This document shows positions 226 to 17,889 of a DNA stretch of 21,315 nucleotides, piece by piece. The translations under genes and the position numbers were made by a program. The first letter of the stretch is position 1. Every line of letters begins with the position of its first letter. Origin of the DNA: Nitrospirae bacterium CG2_30_53_67 (GTDB lineage Bacteria > CG2-30-53-67); NCBI GenBank assembly GCA_001873285.1, contig MNYV01000181.1, positions 1-21,315 of the forward strand, given 5' to 3'. The notes beneath the pieces are model-generated. The model was not told the origin of the DNA and made no database searches. It saw only the letters and a program-made list of their open reading frames with translations.

Positions 226-254
226 TTGACAAGATTACCGGGTTTCATTATACT
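226..254 (+). promoter_or_regulatory. sigma70-type promoter of the TCA-cycle operon
   Basis: TTGACA (226-231), a 17-nt spacer and TATACT (249-254) form a near-consensus housekeeping promoter. The start site would be near 261, leaving a leader of about 130 nt before the first gene. I see no clear riboswitch or attenuator fold in the leader, which is AT-rich. The promoter is divergent from the tRNA promoter at 140-168, with about 58 bp between their -35 boxes. Confidence 0.75.
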
Positions 255-394
255 TTTCAAAATTGCATATCCGATAAAACGATAGCAGGATCCTAACCCC
301 AGTATTCTTCATTCATTTAAAACCAGTGATTTGGAAGATGAAATGAGGTCATGTTTTAAAAACGGTTTTTTGATATGAGATGAGGAGAATGTCC

Positions 395-2194
395 ATGAGG
401 AGAAAAAGGCCTGATTCAAGAATCACACCGGATTACCGCTTTGAACTCAAGGATGTGAAGGAACCGAATCTATTGCGTGATATGTTTCCATACGTTGAGG
501 TTCCGAAGATCTTCTTTGCCGACCGGCTGATTCCCATGTCGCTTCCGGATGATTTCTGGATTACCGATACCACGTTTCGGGATGGACAGCAGGCGAGGCC
601 CCCCTACACCCCTGAACAGATTCTGAAGATCTTTGATATGATGCACCGTCTTGGGGGGCCGAACGGAGTGATCCGGCAGTCCGAGTTCTTCCTGTACAGC
701 GAGAAGGACCGGAAGGCGCTGGAATTGTGCATGGACCGCCGATACCCGTATCCTGAGATCACCGGGTGGATCCGGGCCAAGAAGGAGGACTTCAAGCTCG
801 TCCGGGAGGCCGGCCTCAAGGAGACCGGGATTCTGGTCTCCTGTTCGGATTACCATATCTATCTTAAACTCAAGAAGACGCGCAAACAGGCCCTGAATGA
901 GTATCTGGATGTGGTTCGCGCTTCGCTGGATGCGGGGATCGTGCCCAGATGCCATCTCGAGGATATCACCCGTGCGGACTTCTACGGATTTGTCATCCCC
1001 TTTGTGAACGAACTGATGCGTTTATCCGAAGAGAGCGGGATCCCGGTCAAGATCCGGGCCTGCGATACCATGGGGTACGCGGTCCCTTATCCGGGGGCGG
1101 CCCTTCCCCGAGGGGTTGCTGATCTGATCTACGGGCTGATTCATTACGGCGGCGTCCCTTCTCATCTTCTCGAGTGGCACGGGCACAATGATTTTCACAA
1201 GGTGCTGGCCAATGCGGCGACGGCCTGGCTGTACGGCTGCTGCGCCGCCAACGGGACTCTCCTCGGTTTCGGCGAACGGACAGGGAACCCGCCTATTGAA
1301 GGGCTGATCATCGAATACATGAGCCTCAAGGGCAAACAGAACGGCGTGGATCCCACGGTGATCACCGAGATCGCTAATTATTTTCAGGATGATCTGGGGT
1401 ATCAAATCCCGTCCAATTATCCTTTTGTGGGCGAGGATTTCAATGTGACCAAGGCCGGTATACATGCCGACGGCGTGCTCAAGAACGAGGAGATTTATAA
1501 CATCTTCGATACCCGGAGTCTCCTGAACCGGCCGCTCGGCGTGATCATCACGGACAAATCCGGTGTGGCCGGGATCAGCTACTGGATCAACACGCACCTG
1601 CGTCAGACGGGCGGCCGCACCGTGGACAAGCACCATCCGGGCATTGCCCGCATCCACAGATGGGTGAGCGAGCAGTACGAACAGGGACGCATCACGGCGA
1701 TCTCCAACGAAGAGATCCTGCATCAGGCGAGGAAGCATCTTCCTGAGTATTTTGTATCAGACCTGGACAAGATCAAGGCCAAGGCCCTCGACATGGCTCA
1801 GGGCATTGTGGAGAAAAGCGCCGCCACGCCGGATCTTCGTTCCATGAAACGTTCAAGGATGGAAAAGACGCTGCGGAAACTGGTAGGGGATAATCCATTT
1901 ATTCAATTTGCTTATATCACCAATACCGACGGGATCAAGGTGACCAGTCATATCACTCAGATCGGCGACAAGGCCAAATACCAGATATTTTCCGAGAAAG
2001 AGGATTTTTCCGACCGGTCATGGTTTATAGAACCGATGAAGGACGGCAAGACCCACGCGAGCGATCTTTACACCTCCAAGGCCACGGGGGTTCTGGCCAT
2101 CACCGTCTCCACGCCGATTTTCGACAAAGAGGACGAGATTATCGGTGTTTTCGGCGTGGATATGCGTTTTGAAGACTTGATCAAAAGCGAATAA
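395..2194 (+). CDS. Re-citrate synthase-like enzyme with C-terminal PDC/Cache sensor domain
   Basis: This protein belongs to the homocitrate/isopropylmalate synthase superfamily (HMGL-like TIM barrel). Visible signatures are DTTFRDGQQ near residue 57, the metal-binding HGHND near 261, and GIHADG near 355. The wider sequence resembles Re-citrate synthases, known from Clostridium kluyveri and Syntrophus, which condense acetyl-CoA with oxaloacetate. Genes for isocitrate dehydrogenase, malate dehydrogenase and fumarase follow directly, which favours citrate over homocitrate or isopropylmalate as product. Residues of about 485-599 form an extra module typical of PDC/Cache sensor domains: DRSWF near 541, SDLYTS near 556, then ITVSTPIFD and IIGVFGVDM. 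There is no signal peptide or membrane segment, so this sensor would be cytoplasmic. ATGs lie at 380, 389 and 395. I chose 395 because GAGGAG (382-387) sits 7 nt upstream of it. Reaction specificity is inferred from similarity and context. Confidence 0.8.
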   Translation: MRRKRPDSRITPDYRFELKDVKEPNLLRDMFPYVEVPKIFFADRLIPMSLPDDFWITDTTFRDGQQARPPYTPEQILKIFDMMHRLGGPNGVIRQSEFFLYSEKDRKALELCMDRRYPYPEITGWIRAKKEDFKLVREAGLKETGILVSCSDYHIYLKLKKTRKQALNEYLDVVRASLDAGIVPRCHLEDITRADFYGFVIPFVNELMRLSEESGIPVKIRACDTMGYAVPYPGAALPRGVADLIYGLIHYGGVPSHLLEWHGHNDFHKVLANAATAWLYGCCAANGTLLGFGERTGNPPIEGLIIEYMSLKGKQNGVDPTVITEIANYFQDDLGYQIPSNYPFVGEDFNVTKAGIHADGVLKNEEIYNIFDTRSLLNRPLGVIITDKSGVAGISYWINTHLRQTGGRTVDKHHPGIARIHRWVSEQYEQGRITAISNEEILHQARKHLPEYFVSDLDKIKAKALDMAQGIVEKSAATPDLRSMKRSRMEKTLRKLVGDNPFIQFAYITNTDGIKVTSHITQIGDKAKYQIFSEKEDFSDRSWFIEPMKDGKTHASDLYTSKATGVLAITVSTPIFDKEDEIIGVFGVDMRFEDLIKSE

Positions 2195-2245: not shown

Positions 2246-3490
2246 ATGGTCGAGTTTGAAAAGTTTACACCGCCCGAAGAGGGCGTGAGGATCATCGTCC
2301 GCCGCACAGGGCTGGACGTTCCGGATCATCCCGTGATCCCTTTTATCGAAGGGGACGGGATCGGGCCCGACATCATGCGCGCCGCCCAGCGCGTGCTGAA
2401 CGCAGCCGTGGACAAGGCCTACAGCGGGGAACGCAGGCTCTGCTGGTACGAGATCTATGCCGGGGAGAAGGCGCAGAAAAAGTTTGGAGAATGGATTCCC
2501 CAAGATACCTTTGAGGCCGTCCGGTATTTTTCCGTGGCCCTCAAAGGGCCGTTGACCACCCCGGTGGGGGGGGGATTCCGAAGTCTCAATGTCGCCTTGC
2601 GGCAGACGCTGGACCTCTATGCCTGCGTCCGGCCGATCCGCTATTTTGAAGGGGTTCCTGCGCCGGTCAAGGAACCGCACAAGATGGATATGGTGATCTT
2701 CCGGGAAAACACCGAGGACGTCTATGCCGGAATCGAATGGCCCAAGGGTTCCGAGGAGGCCGGGAGAGTGATTGATTTTCTGAACCGGGAGATGGGGTGC
2801 TCTATTCTCCCGGATTCCGGGATCGGGATCAAACCCATGAGCGAGACCAGGAGCAAACGGCTGATTCGCAAGGCCATCCGTTATGCCATTACCAGGAACC
2901 GCAAGAGCGTGACCCTGGTGCACAAAGGGAATATCATGAAATATACCGAAGGGGCCTTCCGGGACTGGGGCTATGAAACGGCGAGCCAGGAGTTCGGAAG
3001 GCAGACCATTATGGAAAAAGATCTTCATGGCGGGGAACTCCCCCCGGGCAAGATCCTGATCAATGACCGGATCGCCGATGCCATGTTCCAGCAGATCCTG
3101 ACCCGGACGGATGAATACAGCGTGCTCGCGACCCCGAACCTGAACGGGGATTACCTCTCGGATGCCTGCGCCGCTCAGGTCGGCGGGCTGGGACTCGCGC
3201 CAGGCGCCAATTTTGGGGATACCATGGCCGTCTTCGAGGCGACGCACGGCACGGCCCCGAAATATGCGGGCCAGGACAAGGTCAATCCGGGCTCCCTGAT
3301 CCTCTCCGGGGTCATGATGCTGGAGCATCTGGGTTGGGATGAGGCCGGAGATATGATTGTCTCCGCCATAGAGGAGACCATACGCCGGAAGAAAGTGACC
3401 TATGACCTGGAACGGCTGATGGAGGGCGCCACACGGCTTTCCACGTCCCAGTTCGCGGATGAGATCATCGCCGACATGAAGCCCCTGTAG
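2246..3490 (+). CDS. icd: isocitrate dehydrogenase, NADP-dependent type
   Basis: The enzyme oxidatively decarboxylates isocitrate to 2-oxoglutarate in the cytoplasm. The 414-residue protein aligns along its length with the E. coli enzyme (416 aa). The substrate loop RSLNVALRQ places serine at residue 113, the same number as the E. coli regulatory serine. [14 protein letters not shown] is the family signature. The NADP-specificity residues are conserved: K339-Y340 in PKYAGQDKV, and Y386 and R390 in VTYDLERL, matching E. coli K344/Y345 and Y391/R395. NADP rather than NAD is therefore well supported. The ATG at 2246 has AGGAGA (2231-2236) 9 nt upstream. The gene lies 51 nt after the citrate synthase gene and 13 nt before mdh, which indicates an operon. 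No kinase/phosphatase gene (aceK) is seen, so Ser113 phosphorylation cannot be assumed. Confidence 0.95.
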
Positions 3491-3503: not shown

Positions 3504-4436
3504 TTGTATAAAAAAGTCACGGTCATCGGCGCCGGGAACGTCGGCGCCACAACGGCGCAGCGCATTGCAGAAAAGGATCTGGCTGATGTCGTCCTGATTG
3601 ATATTGCCGAAGGAATCCCGCAGGGAAAAGGGCTTGATCTTCTGGAGTCGGCCCCCATCGAGGGGTTTCACAGTCATGTTGCCGGCGCTCATGATTACGG
3701 CGAAACCATGGATTCCGACCTGGTGATCGTGACCGCGGGGATCCCGAGAAAGCCGGGAATGAGCCGTGACGATTTGATCGCGACCAATGCAAAGATCGTC
3801 CGCACGGTCGTGAAGGAGGCGGTCCTGAGGTCTCCGGATGCCATCCTTCTCATGGTGACCAATCCTCTGGATGTGATGTGCTCTGTGGCTAAGAAGGCCA
3901 GCGGGTTCCCCCGTGAAAAGGTGATCGGCATGGCCGGCGTCCTGGATGCCGCCCGTTTCAGGGCCTTCATTTCCATGGAACTCGGCGTCTCGGCAGAGAA
4001 TATCAGCGCCTTGGTCCTGGGCGGGCACGGAGACAGCATGGTCCCCATGCCGAGATATACAACCGTGGCGGGGATTCCGATCACTGAACTTCTCCCTGCA
4101 AAGACCATCGAGGCCATGATCCGGAGGACCCGGGACGGCGGCGCCGAGATCGTGAACCTGATCAAGACGGGGAGCGCCTTTTATGCGCCCTCCTCTGCCG
4201 TGACGGAGATGGCCGAGGCCATTCTTAAAGATCAGAAGAAGGTCCTTCCCTGTTCCGTGTATCTGATGGGGGAATACGGGATACAAGGTGTCTTTATCGG
4301 GGCGCCGGTCAAACTCGGCGCCGGCGGCGCGGAAAAGATTATGGAGATCAGGCTGACGGATGAAGAGCAGCGTCTCTTGAACCTTTCGGCAGAGGCTGTC
4401 CGCAAAACGCTGCTCAAGCTCGATGCGGAACTCTGA
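3504..4436 (+). CDS. mdh: malate dehydrogenase (LDH-like family)
   Basis: The enzyme interconverts malate and oxaloacetate with NAD(H) and would supply or consume oxaloacetate for the upstream citrate synthase. The 310-residue protein has the Rossmann motif G9-A-G11-N-V-G14 and an acidic residue (D33) at the end of the second strand, which favours [12 protein letters not shown] carries the arginines (R82, R88) that distinguish malate from lactate dehydrogenases. VTNPLDV and GGHGDSMVP follow, with catalytic His175. Translation starts at a TTG (3504). AGGAGA (3491-3496) lies 7 nt upstream and overlaps the bases just after the icd stop, so the start is well supported. The gene is tightly packed with icd. 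A 127-bp gap containing a repeat separates it from fumarase. Confidence 0.95.
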
Positions 4437-4484: not shown

Positions 4485-4563
4485 GGGGCCAGGATTTTAG
4501 GGGTCAAGTGAAGCGCCAAAAAACATAAGCATGCCCCGTGGGGCCTGAACCTGAGTGAGCCGT

Positions 4564-5406
4564 ATGAAAGAGATTGCCTTTGATACCATCGTGGAGCATG
4601 TCCGTCAAGCCTGCATTGAAGCCAACTGCGTGATTGCCGAGGATGTGGCTCAGGCCGTTCAACAGGCCCTAAACCAAGAAGAGTCTCCGGTCGGAAGGAA
4701 GATCCTGCAGGAGATTCTTGACAACCATCGTGTGGCTCGAGATACAAAACTTCCCCTCTGCCAGGATACCGGGACTGCGGTATTTTTTGTGGAGATCGGC
4801 CAGGACGTCCGAATGACAGGCGGGCTTCTGGAGGATGCGATCAACGAAGGCGTACGACAAGGTTATGCCGCAGGGTTTCTCCGCAATTCCATGGCGGCCA
4901 ATCCATTAAATAGAAAAAATACCGGAGACAATACCCCGGCCGTGATCCATTTCAGTCTCACTCCGGGAGAACGGCTCAAGATCATCTTCTGCCCCAAGGG
5001 GGGCGGCAGCGAGAATATGAGTGATATCGCCATGCTGAGGCCCGGAGACGGGATGGAAGGAGTGCTGCGGTTCGTCGTCCATACCGTGAAGAAGGCGGGA
5101 TCGCACCCTTGCCCGCCGGTGATCGTGGGGGTCGGGATCGGCGGGAATTTCGAGAAATGCGCGATCCTGGCCAAGAAGGCCCTGACCCGGCCGATAGGGA
5201 GCCCCAACCCCAAGCTGGAGCTTTCACACCTTGAGGTATCCTTCCTGGACGAGATCAACAAACTCGGCATCGGTCCCATGGGGCTTGGGGGTAGAGTCAC
5301 CGCCCTTGCGGTGCATATTGAGACCTTTCCCTGTCACATCGCATCACTCCCCGTTGCCGTGAACATCAATTGTCATGCGGCACGGCATAAAGAGATTCTC
5401 TTGTAG
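4564..5406 (+). CDS. fumA: fumarate hydratase class I, alpha subunit
   Basis: This is the iron-sulfur-bearing half of the two-subunit fumarase, which hydrates fumarate to malate. The [4Fe-4S] cysteines of the family are visible: C66 in LCQDTG, C143 in FCPKGGGSEN and C199 in EKCAILAKKAL. NPLNRKNTGDNTP and GVGIGGNFEK are further family motifs. The length of 280 aa fits an alpha subunit. Such enzymes are oxygen-sensitive, in line with an anaerobe. An in-frame stop at 4552 limits the start to GTG 4555 or ATG 4564. Neither has a strong Shine-Dalgarno sequence (only GAGTGAG at 4553-4559), and I chose ATG. The 127-bp gap upstream contains the 39-bp repeat, so normal coupling to mdh may be disturbed. 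The related L-tartrate dehydratase is possible from sequence alone, but the TCA context favours fumarase. Confidence 0.9.
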   Translation: MKEIAFDTIVEHVRQACIEANCVIAEDVAQAVQQALNQEESPVGRKILQEILDNHRVARDTKLPLCQDTGTAVFFVEIGQDVRMTGGLLEDAINEGVRQGYAAGFLRNSMAANPLNRKNTGDNTPAVIHFSLTPGERLKIIFCPKGGGSENMSDIAMLRPGDGMEGVLRFVVHTVKKAGSHPCPPVIVGVGIGGNFEKCAILAKKALTRPIGSPNPKLELSHLEVSFLDEINKLGIGPMGLGGRVTALAVHIETFPCHIASLPVAVNINCHAARHKEILL

Positions 5407-5421
5407 GCAAGGAGAAACGGA

Positions 5422-5994
5422 ATGACCGAAGCCATACGCCTTCATACCCCGCTTAGGGAAGAGGATATCGAACGTCTCAAGATCGGGGACCCGGTGCTTT
5501 TAAACGGCGTGGTTTATGCAGCCAGGGACGCGGCGCACAAGCGCATGATCGAAACCTTGAATAAAGGGGAGTCCCTCCCGTTTGACCTCAAAGGCCAGGT
5601 GATCTATTATGTCGGTCCTGCGCCGGCGCCTCCGGGGAGGATCATCGGATCTGCAGGTCCGACCACGGCTTCACGAATGGATCCCTATACGCCGATCCTG
5701 CTCGATCAGGGGCTTAAAGGACTGGTGGGCAAAGGACAACGTTCACGCGAGGTGGTTAAAAATCTCGTTGACCACAAGGCTGTTTATTTCGTCGCTGTGG
5801 GAGGCGTTGCGGCCCTCCTTTCGGACCACATCAAAGAGAACCGTGTTCTCGCCTATCCTGAACTCGGACCCGAGGCGTTGCGGCAGCTCATATTCGAAGA
5901 CTTCCCTCTGATCGTGGCCAATGATATCCATGGAGACGATCTGTTTCTCTCAGGGTGGAAACGTTACAGGCGCCGCACCCGGAAGAAGGAATAA
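5422..5994 (+). CDS. fumB: fumarate hydratase class I, beta subunit
   Basis: This 190-residue protein is the C-terminal half of class I fumarase, encoded as a separate subunit. It begins with the typical LHTPLREEDIERLKIGD segment and contains IIGSAGPTTASRMDPY, GLKGLVGKG and the VAVGGVAALL region. These build the swivelling domain that completes the active site with the alpha subunit. AAGGAGA (5408-5414) lies 7 nt before the ATG, and only 15 nt separate it from the alpha subunit gene, so co-translation is expected. It is the last metabolic gene of the operon. The next gene starts 80 nt later with no visible terminator between. Confidence 0.93.
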   Translation: MTEAIRLHTPLREEDIERLKIGDPVLLNGVVYAARDAAHKRMIETLNKGESLPFDLKGQVIYYVGPAPAPPGRIIGSAGPTTASRMDPYTPILLDQGLKGLVGKGQRSREVVKNLVDHKAVYFVAVGGVAALLSDHIKENRVLAYPELGPEALRQLIFEDFPLIVANDIHGDDLFLSGWKRYRRRTRKKE

Positions 5995-14683: not shown

Positions 14684-15469
14684 TTACAGCTTCGGCCCGC
14701 CTTCGGAAGTTAAACTCTTGTGAAAATTTTTAGCAAAATTCATGACGAAATGGAGACTTTTTTGCACTTCGGGGTCCCGGGCGGTTTTAAGAAGTCCTAT
14801 AATCCCTTTCTTGTAAGGCTCTTCCTTCATGTCTGACATGGTCTCCTGAACACCTTCCACCATGGCTCCGATCAGTTCCTGTACCTGCGGATTCATGATC
14901 CTGCTTACGAAGTTTTCAAACATGGAAAGCATTCGTTCCACAATGCTGTCTGTAAAGGCATGGGTGGCGGAACCCATGAAGGTGGCCATCTGGGTGAGAA
15001 TCTCAAGGCTTCCGGAGTTGATCAGTTCCTGAAGCGCCGGCATGACCCGGATGACGTCGGCTTTTACAACCTCGTCACCGATCTCGATCAGTTTTCCCAT
15101 AGTGTCCGAGGACCGCTCAAGAAGGGTGTCGGTCATGGAATTCTTGGCCGCTGCGGCAAAGGAGGCCATCTGGGTCAGGGCGTCCAATGCCCCGCTGCTG
15201 TGGAGTTCGGTGATCTTGGAAATGGAGGTCCTGATCGCATCAAAGACCTCGGGCTTGGCGATTTCACTGGCCAGCGCACCGATCGGCTCCAGGATGGAGG
15301 CCATCCGTTCGATCATGGGATCGGTCTGGGAGTCCTGATAGGCCCCGATGGTCCTGGTGACTTCGCTTAGAGTAGCGGCCTGTCCCAGAAGTTCCTGAAC
15401 ATGGGAAGAGATTTCAGGACGTTCCAGATGTTCCATGAGCGCATTGATGTTCCCGTTTGTTTTGATCAT
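14684..15469 (-). CDS. DUF1641-like helical protein of the sulfur operon
   Basis: A 261-residue, largely alpha-helical soluble protein without signal peptide or membrane span. It resembles DUF1641 proteins, often encoded beside SQR-like flavoproteins; their biochemical role is unknown. An internal duplication is visible: GALDALTQMASFAAAAKNSM (about residues 94-113) and GSLEILTQMATFMGSATHAF (about 152-171) repeat the same pattern, each followed by TD-x2-[LV]-ER and about 20 helical residues. A weaker copy may precede them (DPMIERMASILEPIG). AGGAGG (15477-15482 on the plus strand) lies 7 nt before the ATG. The start is 14 nt after the SQR-like stop, so the two are co-translated. It may act as a partner or membrane-recruitment subunit of the flavoprotein, which is inference. 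Confidence 0.7.
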   Translation of the reverse strand: MIKTNGNINALMEHLERPEISSHVQELLGQAATLSEVTRTIGAYQDSQTDPMIERMASILEPIGALASEIAKPEVFDAIRTSISKITELHSSGALDALTQMASFAAAAKNSMTDTLLERSSDTMGKLIEIGDEVVKADVIRVMPALQELINSGSLEILTQMATFMGSATHAFTDSIVERMLSMFENFVSRIMNPQVQELIGAMVEGVQETMSDMKEEPYKKGIIGLLKTARDPEVQKSLHFVMNFAKNFHKSLTSEGGPKL

Positions 15470-15483
15470 CCTGTTCCCTCCTT

Positions 15484-16623
15484 TTAAAGAATGCCTCGGG
15501 CGCTCAGCCAGTAGAGCCGGTTATAGGCCAGCTTGAACCAGTGGATCATCTGTGAGGGTTCGCCTGGATTGGGGGGGGTATTGTAGTTGAACCAGACATA
15601 GGTTCCTTTTTCCATGCCGCTTTCCACGAAGCAGAATACCTTGCCGTCGTATTCCCGGCCAGGGCACCCTTCCTTGATCTGGCAGATCAGGGATTCAGCC
15701 ACCGTATCCGCTTCGAAGTGGGCTGTGGATCCGGCCTTGCTGATCGGGATGTTGGTGGTGTCACCGACGACGAAGATGTTTTCCTTCCCATCCATCTGCA
15801 GGCTCTTTTTGTTGGTGGGGATCCACCCTGATGGTCCGAGGTTGGATTCCTCTATGACCGGCTGGCCCTTGTGCGGCGGTACGGCAATCAGGAGATCATA
15901 ATCTACAACCGAACCTTCCTCGCTCTCGATCTGCTTCTTTACCGGGTCGATCTTTTTCATGTTGAAGAAGGTTTCATACTTGATTCCACGCTGTTCAAAG
16001 GCCTTGACCGCCCAATGGGCGACCGGCTCCATGGCATGCACCCGGCCGATGGGATACGTATAATAGATCTCGTACTTGTTCTTCAGTCCGTTTTGGGAGA
16101 AGAGGTCATCGAGCATGAAGGTCATCTCCAACGGGGCCACGGGGCACTTGTGAGGAACGCCCACGGCTATGACAATTCTCCCGCCCTGGAAGGCCTTGAG
16201 GGCGGTACGCAGCTTCTTGGCTCCTTCAAGATCATAGAACCAGTGGGCCCCCTCTTTCATGCCCGGGATCTCTTCGGGAACGATCCGGGATCCGGTGGCG
16301 ATGACCAGATAATCATAAGGATATGCCTTGCCGCTTTTTGCCAGGACTGTTTGTTTCTTCGTGTCGATCTTCACTGCGGGGTCGACATAGAAGTTGATGA
16401 GCGGATCCAGCAGGCTTTTTTGATCCCGGATGAACTCTTCATCCTGCATCCTGCCGAAGGCTACGTAGAGAAAAGCCGGCTGGTAGACGTGCTTGTCCGA
16501 TGCGCTCAGCATGTTGACGGTGACATCGCCCCGCCTCATCTCCGTCCTGAGGCCGCGCGCGACAAGGTTGGCGACGATGGTTCCTCCTGTTCCTCCTCCC
16601 AAGATCAAGATTCTTTTTCCCAT
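15484..16623 (-). CDS. SQR/FCC-like FAD-dependent oxidoreductase
   Basis: A 379-residue flavoprotein of the sulfide:quinone oxidoreductase / flavocytochrome c sulfide dehydrogenase group. The N-terminus RILILGGGTGGTIVAN is the FAD-binding Rossmann motif, LVIATGSRIVPE the second, and FVVGDTTNIPISKAGS the third. Cys160 in HKCPVAPLEMT matches the position of an active-site cysteine of Acidithiobacillus SQR. Other cysteines are C314, C320 and C331 (VFCFVESG). I see no cysteine near residue 128, so the disulfide set is not that of classical SQR. The C-terminal WFKLAYNRLYWLSARGIL is an amphipathic, aromatic helix suited to membrane contact. It probably moves electrons between a sulfane-sulfur substrate and quinone. 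Neighbouring TusA and DsrE proteins suggest a protein-bound persulfide substrate rather than free sulfide. GAGAGGTG precedes the ATG. Confidence 0.83.
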   Translation of the reverse strand: MGKRILILGGGTGGTIVANLVARGLRTEMRRGDVTVNMLSASDKHVYQPAFLYVAFGRMQDEEFIRDQKSLLDPLINFYVDPAVKIDTKKQTVLAKSGKAYPYDYLVIATGSRIVPEEIPGMKEGAHWFYDLEGAKKLRTALKAFQGGRIVIAVGVPHKCPVAPLEMTFMLDDLFSQNGLKNKYEIYYTYPIGRVHAMEPVAHWAVKAFEQRGIKYETFFNMKKIDPVKKQIESEEGSVVDYDLLIAVPPHKGQPVIEESNLGPSGWIPTNKKSLQMDGKENIFVVGDTTNIPISKAGSTAHFEADTVAESLICQIKEGCPGREYDGKVFCFVESGMEKGTYVWFNYNTPPNPGEPSQMIHWFKLAYNRLYWLSARGIL

Positions 16624-16644
16624 GATGCACCTCTCATTTGTCTG

Positions 16645-16797
16645 TTATCCATCCCTGCCCGGGATGTGCCCGGAGAGCAGGTCAAAAATATCCCACTTTC
16701 CCACCCTGATAAGCGCCAGGGGCTGGATCCATGCCTTGATCCATGTTTTGGTGATGCGAATGCCTACTGCAAAGCAGACCGAATCCGGTTCGGTGGT
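16645..16797 (-). other. coding-like open frame without start codon between SQR-like gene and tusA
   Basis: Between two in-frame stops (16798-16800 and 16645-16647) the minus strand is open for 50 codons. It reads VCFAVGIRITKTWIKAW, then IQPLALIRVGKWDIF and DLLSGHIPGRDG. Third positions favour G and C like true genes here. There is no ATG, GTG or TTG start in frame. It could be a relic, a small W-rich peptide using a rare start, or a dispersed non-coding element that happens to be open. The 214-bp gap holding it is unusually long for an otherwise compact operon. Confidence 0.35.
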
Positions 16798-16837
16798 TTA
16801 TTCTCTCAGGCCTGATCCCCTCGGCCTTCAAGAATGG

Positions 16838-17065
16838 TTATTTAATCTTTTTAACCACGATGCTCCAGCAGCCGTCTATTTCACGGGTGCCGATGTGCAC
16901 CTGCCCGGTTCTTGAGGCCCAGTAAGGAATCTCCTTCTTGGAGCCCGGGTCTGAGGAAAGGACCTCAATCACGGTTCCGACCGGTTCGTTCTTCATGGTA
17001 AAGATCAGTTCCATGAGCGGCCCCGGACAGTAGGACCCCCGTGCATCCAGGGTCTTGTGAACCAT
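16838..17065 (-). CDS. tusA: TusA-family sulfur carrier, second of tandem pair
   Basis: A 75-residue sulfurtransferase carrier. LDARGSYCPGPLMELI contains the family Cys-Pro-x-Pro motif, whose cysteine carries a persulfide; the ending CWSIVVKKIK is nearly the same as in its neighbour. In bacteria with Dsr, Hdr or SQR-type sulfur metabolism, TusA shuttles sulfane sulfur between enzymes. The frame is open further upstream to an ATG at 17168-17170, which would add 35 residues with a basic TDRRSREDRR stretch. I prefer the ATG at 17063-17065, because the protein then matches the length and N-terminus of the paralogue, although its ribosome-binding site is weak. It is about half identical to the gene at 17217-17456 and probably arose by duplication. 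Confidence 0.85.
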   Translation of the reverse strand: MVHKTLDARGSYCPGPLMELIFTMKNEPVGTVIEVLSSDPGSKKEIPYWASRTGQVHIGTREIDGCWSIVVKKIK

Positions 17066-17190
17066 GATCTCAGCCTGGTTTCTACGGTCCTCTCTGCTTC
17101 TGCGGTCCGTAACGCACCAAGGTCTCTGATAATCATTTTTATTAATTTTATAAAGGGTCTGTTCCAACATAAAACTTTCTCACTTTACGG

Positions 17191-17207
17191 GTCCATACGG
17201 AATGGAC
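17191..17207. other. hairpin between the two tusA genes
   Basis: GTCCAT (17191-17196), a 5-nt loop and ATGGAC (17202-17207) form a perfect 6-bp stem, 10 nt beyond the stop of the first tusA. No T-run follows on the minus strand, so it is more likely a processing or stability element than a terminator. Confidence 0.4.
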
Positions 17208-17216
17208 GGGCGCTGA

Positions 17217-17456
17217 TTATTTGTTTTTCTTGACCACGATGCTCCAGAAACCATCATTCTGTTCGGTCCCAATGTACTCGTGTCCGACCTTCCTGATCCA
17301 TTCCGGGATATCCTTTGCAGACCCGTTGTCTGAAGAAAGAACCTCGATGACCGATCCGACCGGTTCCGTCTTCATGCTGCCGATCAGTTCCATCAGGGGG
17401 CCGGGGCAGAAGGCGCCTCTTGCATCAATGGTTTTGGATATTCTGAGATCCAGCAT
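17217..17456 (-). CDS. tusA: TusA-family sulfur carrier, first of tandem pair
   Basis: A 79-residue TusA protein: KTIDARGAFCPGPLMELIGS holds the persulfide-carrying Cys-Pro-x-Pro motif, followed by SVIEVLSSDNGSAKDIPEW and the conserved ending FWSIVVKKNK. It is a close paralogue of the next gene. A strong AGGAGGG lies 6 nt before the ATG. The gene is 28 nt after the DsrE-like gene, in a clear operon. Two TusA copies beside a DsrE protein suggest a relay in which each carrier has its own partner; which partner each serves is not readable from sequence. Confidence 0.92.
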   Translation of the reverse strand: MLDLRISKTIDARGAFCPGPLMELIGSMKTEPVGSVIEVLSSDNGSAKDIPEWIRKVGHEYIGTEQNDGFWSIVVKKNK

Positions 17457-17484
17457 GTTTTTCCCTCCTTATATATATGGTAGA

Positions 17485-17889
17485 TTACAAATGAAGCAGT
17501 TGACTTCCATCCGCTTCGATCAAAAACTTGGTCATGCCTGCAACCTCGTCAAACAGATTGTCTTCCAGATCGTCTTTGGTCCATCCGAGGACTTCCATGG
17601 CCATGGGGCAGGCGAACATCCTGACGCCGCCGAATTCTTTTCCCTGCCGGAAGAGATCCAGATAAGGCGGAACCTTTTTCTCACGAAGGACCTTTGAGAA
17701 ATCGCCGCCGGAAAATTTTTCATCGTCCGAGATTCCCTTCTTGAATTTTTTGATCGCTCCCATGGATACAAAAACCAGAACCTCGATTCCAGTCACGGCA
17801 GCCACTGAACTGATCATCCCTGCCAATTGAACCTTTTCATGATGATCCGAGGATAAAATGATCGAGATCTTTTTGGTCTCTTGCGCCAT
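17485..17889 (-). CDS. DsrE-like sulfur relay protein
   Basis: A 134-residue protein of the DsrE/DsrF/DrsE2-like group. The start KKISIILSSDHHEKVQLAGM and the central VLVFVSMGAIKKF fit this fold. The conserved cysteine lies in VRMFACPMAMEVLGW, where DsrE-type proteins carry sulfane sulfur. It is soluble here, with no clear transmembrane segment. As first gene of the operon it would exchange persulfide sulfur with the two TusA proteins encoded next. AGGAGAG lies about 6 nt before the ATG. A sigma54-type promoter is found 46 bp upstream. Confidence 0.87.
   Translation of the reverse strand: MAQETKKISIILSSDHHEKVQLAGMISSVAAVTGIEVLVFVSMGAIKKFKKGISDDEKFSGGDFSKVLREKKVPPYLDLFRQGKEFGGVRMFACPMAMEVLGWTKDDLEDNLFDEVAGMTKFLIEADGSQLLHL

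Follow-up and report, generated by a model that had tools for sequence, protein, structure and literature searches.

A predicted cytoplasmic PDC/Cache domain fused to a Re-citrate-synthase-like enzyme in many anaerobic phyla

Isopropylmalate synthase (LeuA) and homocitrate synthase are under feedback control by leucine or lysine, which act through a C-terminal regulatory domain. How the related Re-citrate synthases control the entry of citrate in anaerobes has been little studied. These enzymes fall into two clades, and those of Syntrophus and Clostridium kluyveri belong to the same one (PMC12016533). Descriptions of Cache/PDC domains mostly present them as sensors outside the cell, on receptors, kinases, and cyclic-di-GMP enzymes, and Upadhyay et al. 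found the Cache families to lie mainly outside the cell, with Diacid_rec and YkuI_C as exceptions (PMC4822843). In the amino-acid receptor PctA, R126 touches the carboxyl group of the ligand, and D173 also makes a key contact with the ligand (PMC10104139). Pyruvate and other small carboxylates have been reported as ligands of KinD, which has been grouped with carboxylate sensors (PMC8534201, PMC8694187). Here we describe a Cache/PDC domain on what appears to be an enzyme of central metabolism, in a fusion that recurs across many anaerobic phyla, Desulfovibrio and syntrophs included.

The gene under study was found in Nitrospirae bacterium CG2_30_53_67 (GCA_001873285.1, contig MNYV01000181.1, positions 1 to 21,315; this whole stretch of 21,315 nucleotides is called the window below). 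It occupies positions 395 to 2194 of the forward strand, where an open reading frame with matches to Pfam PF00682 and PF22673 encodes 599 amino acids. The stop codon ends at 2194, and direct reading of the sequence shows an AGGAG ribosome-binding site at 383 to 387 (+), 7 bases 5' of the ATG at 395. An AlphaFold model of the whole protein (pLDDT 91) matches the Sulfolobus homocitrate synthase 6ktq with a Z score of 33.8, and residues 56 to 328 (560 to 1378, +) form an HMGL-like TIM-barrel catalytic domain (PF00682, E = 2.3e-28). This barrel carries the catalytic/metal motif R62-D63-G-Q-Q66 (578 to 592, +) and the metal-site motif E260-W-H262-G-H264-N265 (1172 to 1189, +); R62, D63, and Q66 in the former and E260, H262, H264, and N265 in the latter do not vary among 77 fused and 29 unfused homologs.

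What the enzyme makes is less directly legible than its fold. The NCBIfam models for homocitrate synthase (NifV) and isopropylmalate synthase (LEU1) match far below their cut-offs, and we therefore withheld both names. The homologs of anammox bacteria (Brocadiaceae) are 62 to 65% identical to the 599-residue protein, and the anammox Re-citrate synthase candidate is itself 55.1% identical to C. kluyveri Re-citrate synthase (PMC8027424). A search of the host genome, 95% complete, found no Si-citrate synthase (PF00285). In the same family, four sister genomes nevertheless hold both the fused gene and a Si-citrate synthase, so its absence from the host may be an assembly gap, and the fused enzyme may not be the sole citrate synthase; we have accordingly dropped the firm claim that it is the only one of its host. 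Among genomes of other families that hold the fused enzyme, 1 of 12 has a Si-citrate synthase, compared with 134 of the 193 genomes sampled (Fisher p = 4e-5, with genomes that are not fully independent). Given the catalytic residues, the fold match, the anammox identity, and this depletion, Re-citrate synthase is the best assignment that the sequence evidence offers. A separate genome, G263, holds a fused copy (L100), an unfused copy, and a Si-citrate synthase together and would provide a natural comparison of both forms.

The C-terminal part of the protein, residues 485 to 599 (1847 to 2191, +), is a PDC/Cache sensor domain. Pfam MCP-like_PDC_1 (PF22673) matches residues 490 to 596 with 57 bits (cut-off 27; E = 3.2e-15), and dCache_1 (PF02743) barely passes its own cut-off (45.5 versus 45). 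The dCache_1 match covers model positions 57 to 155 of 240, and a single PDC module is present, which rules out a double Cache of two tandem modules. Modelled alone, the domain reaches a pLDDT of 95 and shows the PDC fold, with a long N-terminal helix and a PAS-like sheet; its structural matches are led by the distal Cache of KinD (Z = 14.8, with 110 residues aligned at an rmsd of 2.5), followed by 5ere (12.5), DctB (12.1), and Tlp3 (12.0). A helix at residues 456 to 476 (1760 to 1822, +) connects enzyme and sensor in the AlphaFold model, and the 90% conservation of K461 and A464 within it would be consistent with a single fusion event.

These results confirm the observation in the first-pass annotation and support part of its interpretation; the annotation had been made from the letters of the DNA and had described a Re-citrate-synthase-like enzyme ending in a PDC/Cache domain. 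The enzyme call agrees with PF00682 and the invariant catalytic residues, and the sensor call was confirmed by PF22673 at residues 490 to 596. It had further placed the sensor where LeuA and homocitrate synthases have their regulatory domains, and this also holds: LeuA_dimer (PF08502), ACT, and RAM gave no Pfam match at E up to 1 in the 599-residue protein, which excludes a LeuA-type regulatory domain at the C terminus. Its view that there is no membrane segment stands as well. The protein has no hydrophobic segment, the highest 19-residue Kyte-Doolittle mean being 1.05, and this value rules out an extracellular Cache receptor with flanking transmembrane helices. The PDC of the fused enzyme is thus predicted to be cytoplasmic.

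The fusion is not confined to this genome. An enzyme-profile scan of species genomes yielded 560 loci, of which the best 80 were kept; ORFs from these and from the loci of a genome search were aligned into a set of 110 proteins. The PDC is carried by 81 of the 110 (3 of the 81 being cut or masked) and is clearly absent in 28, and when 59 PDC regions were scanned singly, all 59 matched PF22673. Proteins with the fusion occur in Thermodesulfobacteriota (Desulfovibrio and Syntrophales among them), Nitrospirota, Spirochaetota, Lentisphaerota, Fibrobacterota, Elusimicrobiota, Omnitrophota, Margulisbacteria, and Auribacterota, and they are seen in the cultured isolates Desulfocarbo indianensis, Fundidesulfovibrio agrisoli, and Desulfovibrio sp. 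ZJ369. With about 80 fused homologs, isolates included, a chance fusion or an assembly artefact is excluded. The Bacillota and Brocadiaceae homologs that were retrieved are unfused, which implies that the PDC is not needed for catalysis. In a sample of 386 genomes, the enzyme (E up to 1e-80) is present in 31, and 17 of these 31 have the fused form; a plasmid search returned distant, unfused homologs only. One fused homolog (L008:1438-3516) ends in an additional tail very rich in charged residues, and its pocket is degenerate, with H at the positions of both F544 and D589.

On the tree of the enzyme domain, the PDC trait requires at least 7 changes, 3 of them forced by well-supported branches, and because the tree is unrooted, gain and loss are indistinguishable. 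Between close pairs, the dN/dS of the PDC is about 0.02 to 0.15, which shows strong purifying selection on the domain. Distances in the PDC follow those in the enzyme (Mantel r = 0.70, with 0 of 2,000 permutations as high), as would be expected if the two had a joint descent. Judged by sequence, the pairing of enzyme and PDC is both widespread and ancient, and such an architecture seems to be the norm in its clade. The impression of a rare oddity of one gene therefore has to be given up, the fused form being the commoner one among the homologs retrieved and spanning many phyla. The first-pass annotation had also allowed that the fusion might already be described as standard: it is standard in sequence, but no paper describing it was found. 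A search of open-licence papers found none that ties Re-citrate synthase or homocitrate/isopropylmalate synthase to Cache/PDC domains. The parts are known; their conserved combination is undescribed in the open-licence literature, and a prior description elsewhere is possible.

The conservation of the predicted pocket makes it likely that the PDC is a ligand sensor, as had been supposed from the sequence of this one gene. Aligned to solved receptors, the PDC profile matches Tlp3 (E = 1e-11), KinD (3e-10), PctA (4e-7), and YkuI (8e-4), and HMMER alignment with PctA and KinD locates a pocket signature, R-x-W-F/Y-x-S/D, that the fused family keeps. Its first part, R541-x-W543-F544 (2015 to 2026, +), corresponds to R126/W128/Y129 of PctA and is conserved in 94% (R), 100% (W), and 95% (F) of 78 fused homologs. 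The second, Y559-x-S561 (2069 to 2077, +), corresponds to Y144/D146 of PctA and to the Y-x-S of KinD, with Y in 82% (F in 15%) and S in 100% of the 78. D589 (2159 to 2161, +), the counterpart of PctA D173, is kept in 99%. R541, W543, F544, Y559, and D589 thus all align with residues of the PctA amino-acid motif, but the position of PctA Y121 is E in the 599-residue protein (Y in only 9 of the 78 fused homologs), and that of D146 is the invariant S561. Membership in the dCache_1AA class of universal amino-acid sensors was rejected, because the motif is incomplete at the Y121 position although the R, W, aromatic, Y, and D residues are present. In the solved R131A mutant of KinD, the changed residue aligns with R541, while D589 has no counterpart in KinD. 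With D589 unmatched there and E in place of Y121, the pocket sequence does not by itself name a ligand; a small carboxylate or 2-oxo acid seems to us likelier than an amino acid because KinD is the best structural match and shares the Y-x-S and Arg positions.

The relatives of the sensor are also informative about its kind. We ran a PDC profile over the 386 genomes; it was built from the fused enzymes' own PDCs, so that some gap in score is to be expected. Next after the fused enzymes came four chemoreceptors with a C-terminal PDC (L126, L133, L134, and L135) at 90 to 120 bits, and the remaining proteins scored 51 bits or less, except for a contig-end fragment of the G145 enzyme. All four chemoreceptor PDCs show the R-x-W-F, Y-x-S, and D signature; L126, L133, and L134 are without membrane helices, and L135 has two N-terminal helices. 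Weaker matches, again C-terminal and with Y-x-S, were a chemoreceptor without transmembrane segments (L139) and YkuI-type EAL proteins (L138 and L145). From this ranking, the enzyme's PDC appears to belong with cytoplasmic C-terminal PDC sensors and not with periplasmic receptors. No second PDC of the enzyme's type was found in the host genome, which led us to reject the idea that the domain had been recruited from one of the host's own chemoreceptors. The mostly helix-free chemoreceptors with a C-terminal PDC (L126:319-1851, L133, L134, L135, and L139) represent a little-described layout in their own right.

The gene context points to the tricarboxylic acid (TCA) cycle. Downstream of the fused gene lie genes for an NADP-dependent isocitrate dehydrogenase (icd, 2246 to 3490, +; TIGR00183, 666 bits), a malate dehydrogenase (mdh, 3504 to 4436, +; TIGR01763, 466 bits), a fumarate hydratase alpha subunit (fumA, 4555 to 5406, +; NF004885, 410 bits), and an Fe-S hydro-lyase (fumarate hydratase) beta subunit (fumB, 5422 to 5994, +; NF005310, 255 bits), all above the cut-offs of their models. 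The fused gene opens this icd-mdh-fumA-fumB cluster, and because all of these genes share a strand and are separated by short gaps, it is probably the first gene of a TCA-cycle operon. At 226 to 254 (+) lies a sigma-70-like promoter, TTGACA-17-TATACT with 11 of 12 matches, which is a consensus match only, in a region where 9 such sites were found against 3.8 expected. An icd gene is downstream of the enzyme gene in many homologs too, and at L037 an aconitase gene directly follows the fused enzyme. At several Thermodesulfobacteriota-type loci (L016:4169-5998, L028:4147-5925, L037:4122-5873, and L043:3241-5031), an aspartyl-tRNA synthetase gene lies just upstream of the fused enzyme, preceded at L016 by histidyl-tRNA synthetase. 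Elsewhere in the window are a tRNA-Leu (gag) near its start (19 to 105, -) and, at 14684 to 17889 (-), clustered genes for DUF1641, pyridine-nucleotide-disulphide (sulfide:quinone-like) oxidoreductase, TusA-like, and DsrE-like proteins, a cluster that suggests sulfur metabolism.

On this domain make-up, fold, position, conservation, purifying selection, and gene context we build our main reading, to which we give a probability of roughly 0.58: that the protein is a Re-citrate synthase whose cytoplasmic PDC senses a small carboxylate or 2-oxo acid and tunes activity allosterically. We infer that acetyl-CoA and oxaloacetate would be condensed to citrate, with Re-stereospecificity, on a metal-dependent TIM barrel of the C. 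kluyveri/Syntrophus type, itself related to homocitrate synthase. A carboxylate or 2-oxo acid of central metabolism would bind the predicted pocket formed by R541, W543, Y559, S561, and D589; candidates are 2-oxoglutarate, pyruvate, oxaloacetate, and succinate, with glutamate or aspartate less likely. The signal may then pass through the helix at residues 456 to 476 and across the oligomer to the barrel, moving activity up or down. Such control would resemble the action of leucine and lysine through the regulatory domains of related enzymes.

The pocket could instead serve an amino-acid sensor, for glutamate, aspartate, or something similar, that exerts end-product feedback on the 2-oxoglutarate/glutamate branch. 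Five pocket residues match PctA motif positions (R541, W543, F544, Y559, and D589), and two amino-acid receptors, Tlp3 and PctA, rank high in the sequence comparison, yet we consider this idea unlikely: the residue in place of Y121 is E and varies across the family, D146 is replaced by an invariant Ser that KinD and proteins of the YkuI type also have, and the top structural match is a carboxylate sensor rather than an amino-acid receptor. It is also conceivable that the PDC binds no regulatory ligand at all and acts as an oligomerisation or stability module, for example in tetramer formation. Cache and PAS folds often dimerise, and homologs without the PDC exist, both of which would sit well with such a role. 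The pocket residues, however, are among the most conserved positions of a domain in which much else varies, and the nearest PDC relatives sit on signalling proteins, so that we regard a purely structural module as quite improbable.

A further alternative concerns the enzyme itself, which might be another acyltransferase of the family, making homocitrate, citramalate, or the product of a new condensation, and likewise controlled by its PDC. NifV and LEU1 models that match only far below cut-off, and the Si-citrate synthase also present in the four sister genomes, would leave room for such an activity. The operon with icd, mdh, and fum speaks against it, as do the depletion of Si-citrate synthase in fused-enzyme genomes of other families and the chain of identity from this protein to the anammox homologs (62 to 65%) and from the anammox candidate to C. 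kluyveri Re-citrate synthase (55.1%; PMC8027424); we see little chance that it is correct.

If the main reading of a PDC-regulated Re-citrate synthase is right, the role of Cache domains goes beyond signalling proteins and includes the direct allosteric regulation of metabolism, and the PDC is a concrete and testable candidate site for the control of citrate entry. Only tentatively, and at well short of even odds, do we extend this to a cytoplasmic PDC subfamily common to the TCA-entry enzyme and the chemoreceptors with a C-terminal PDC, through which one internal metabolite pool would set citrate synthesis and, in other bacteria, swimming, the Cache domain being a true allosteric enzyme domain.

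Several known systems each share part of this arrangement. LeuA and homocitrate synthase have a related TIM barrel with a C-terminal add-on at the same place, but their regulatory domain has the LeuA_dimer or RAM fold, neither of which was detected in the 599-residue protein. The distal Cache of KinD, sporulation kinase D of B. subtilis, shares the Arg and Y-x-S pocket positions and is the best fold match; it differs in being part of a double Cache that a membrane kinase carries outside the cell, in lacking an Asp at the D589 position, and in being only 23% identical. The chemoreceptors L126, L133, L134, and L135 have the same signature and the same cytoplasmic C-terminal placement, although their output is an MCP signalling domain rather than an enzyme. 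YkuI, an EAL protein with a Cache of the YkuI_C family, which is described as mainly intracellular (PMC4822843), also bears an intracellular C-terminal Cache on a soluble, enzyme-like protein and is a structural match, but its output domain is EAL, and the sequence match is weak and below the Pfam cut-off. The Re-citrate synthases of the C. kluyveri/S. aciditrophicus clade share the superfamily, the invariant catalytic residues, the TCA gene context, and the distribution among anaerobes. Their Bacillota and anammox homologs are without the PDC, unlike the protein described here, while the Syntrophales members of the clade are fused, at about 71 to 72 kDa without a tag. The characterised S. aciditrophicus Re-citrate synthase is reportedly a tetramer of ~72.9-kDa subunits that contained, when isolated, roughly one Ca each. 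That subunit mass fits the fused Syntrophales form and not an unfused one of about 460 residues, and a purified, active enzyme carrying the PDC may therefore already exist.
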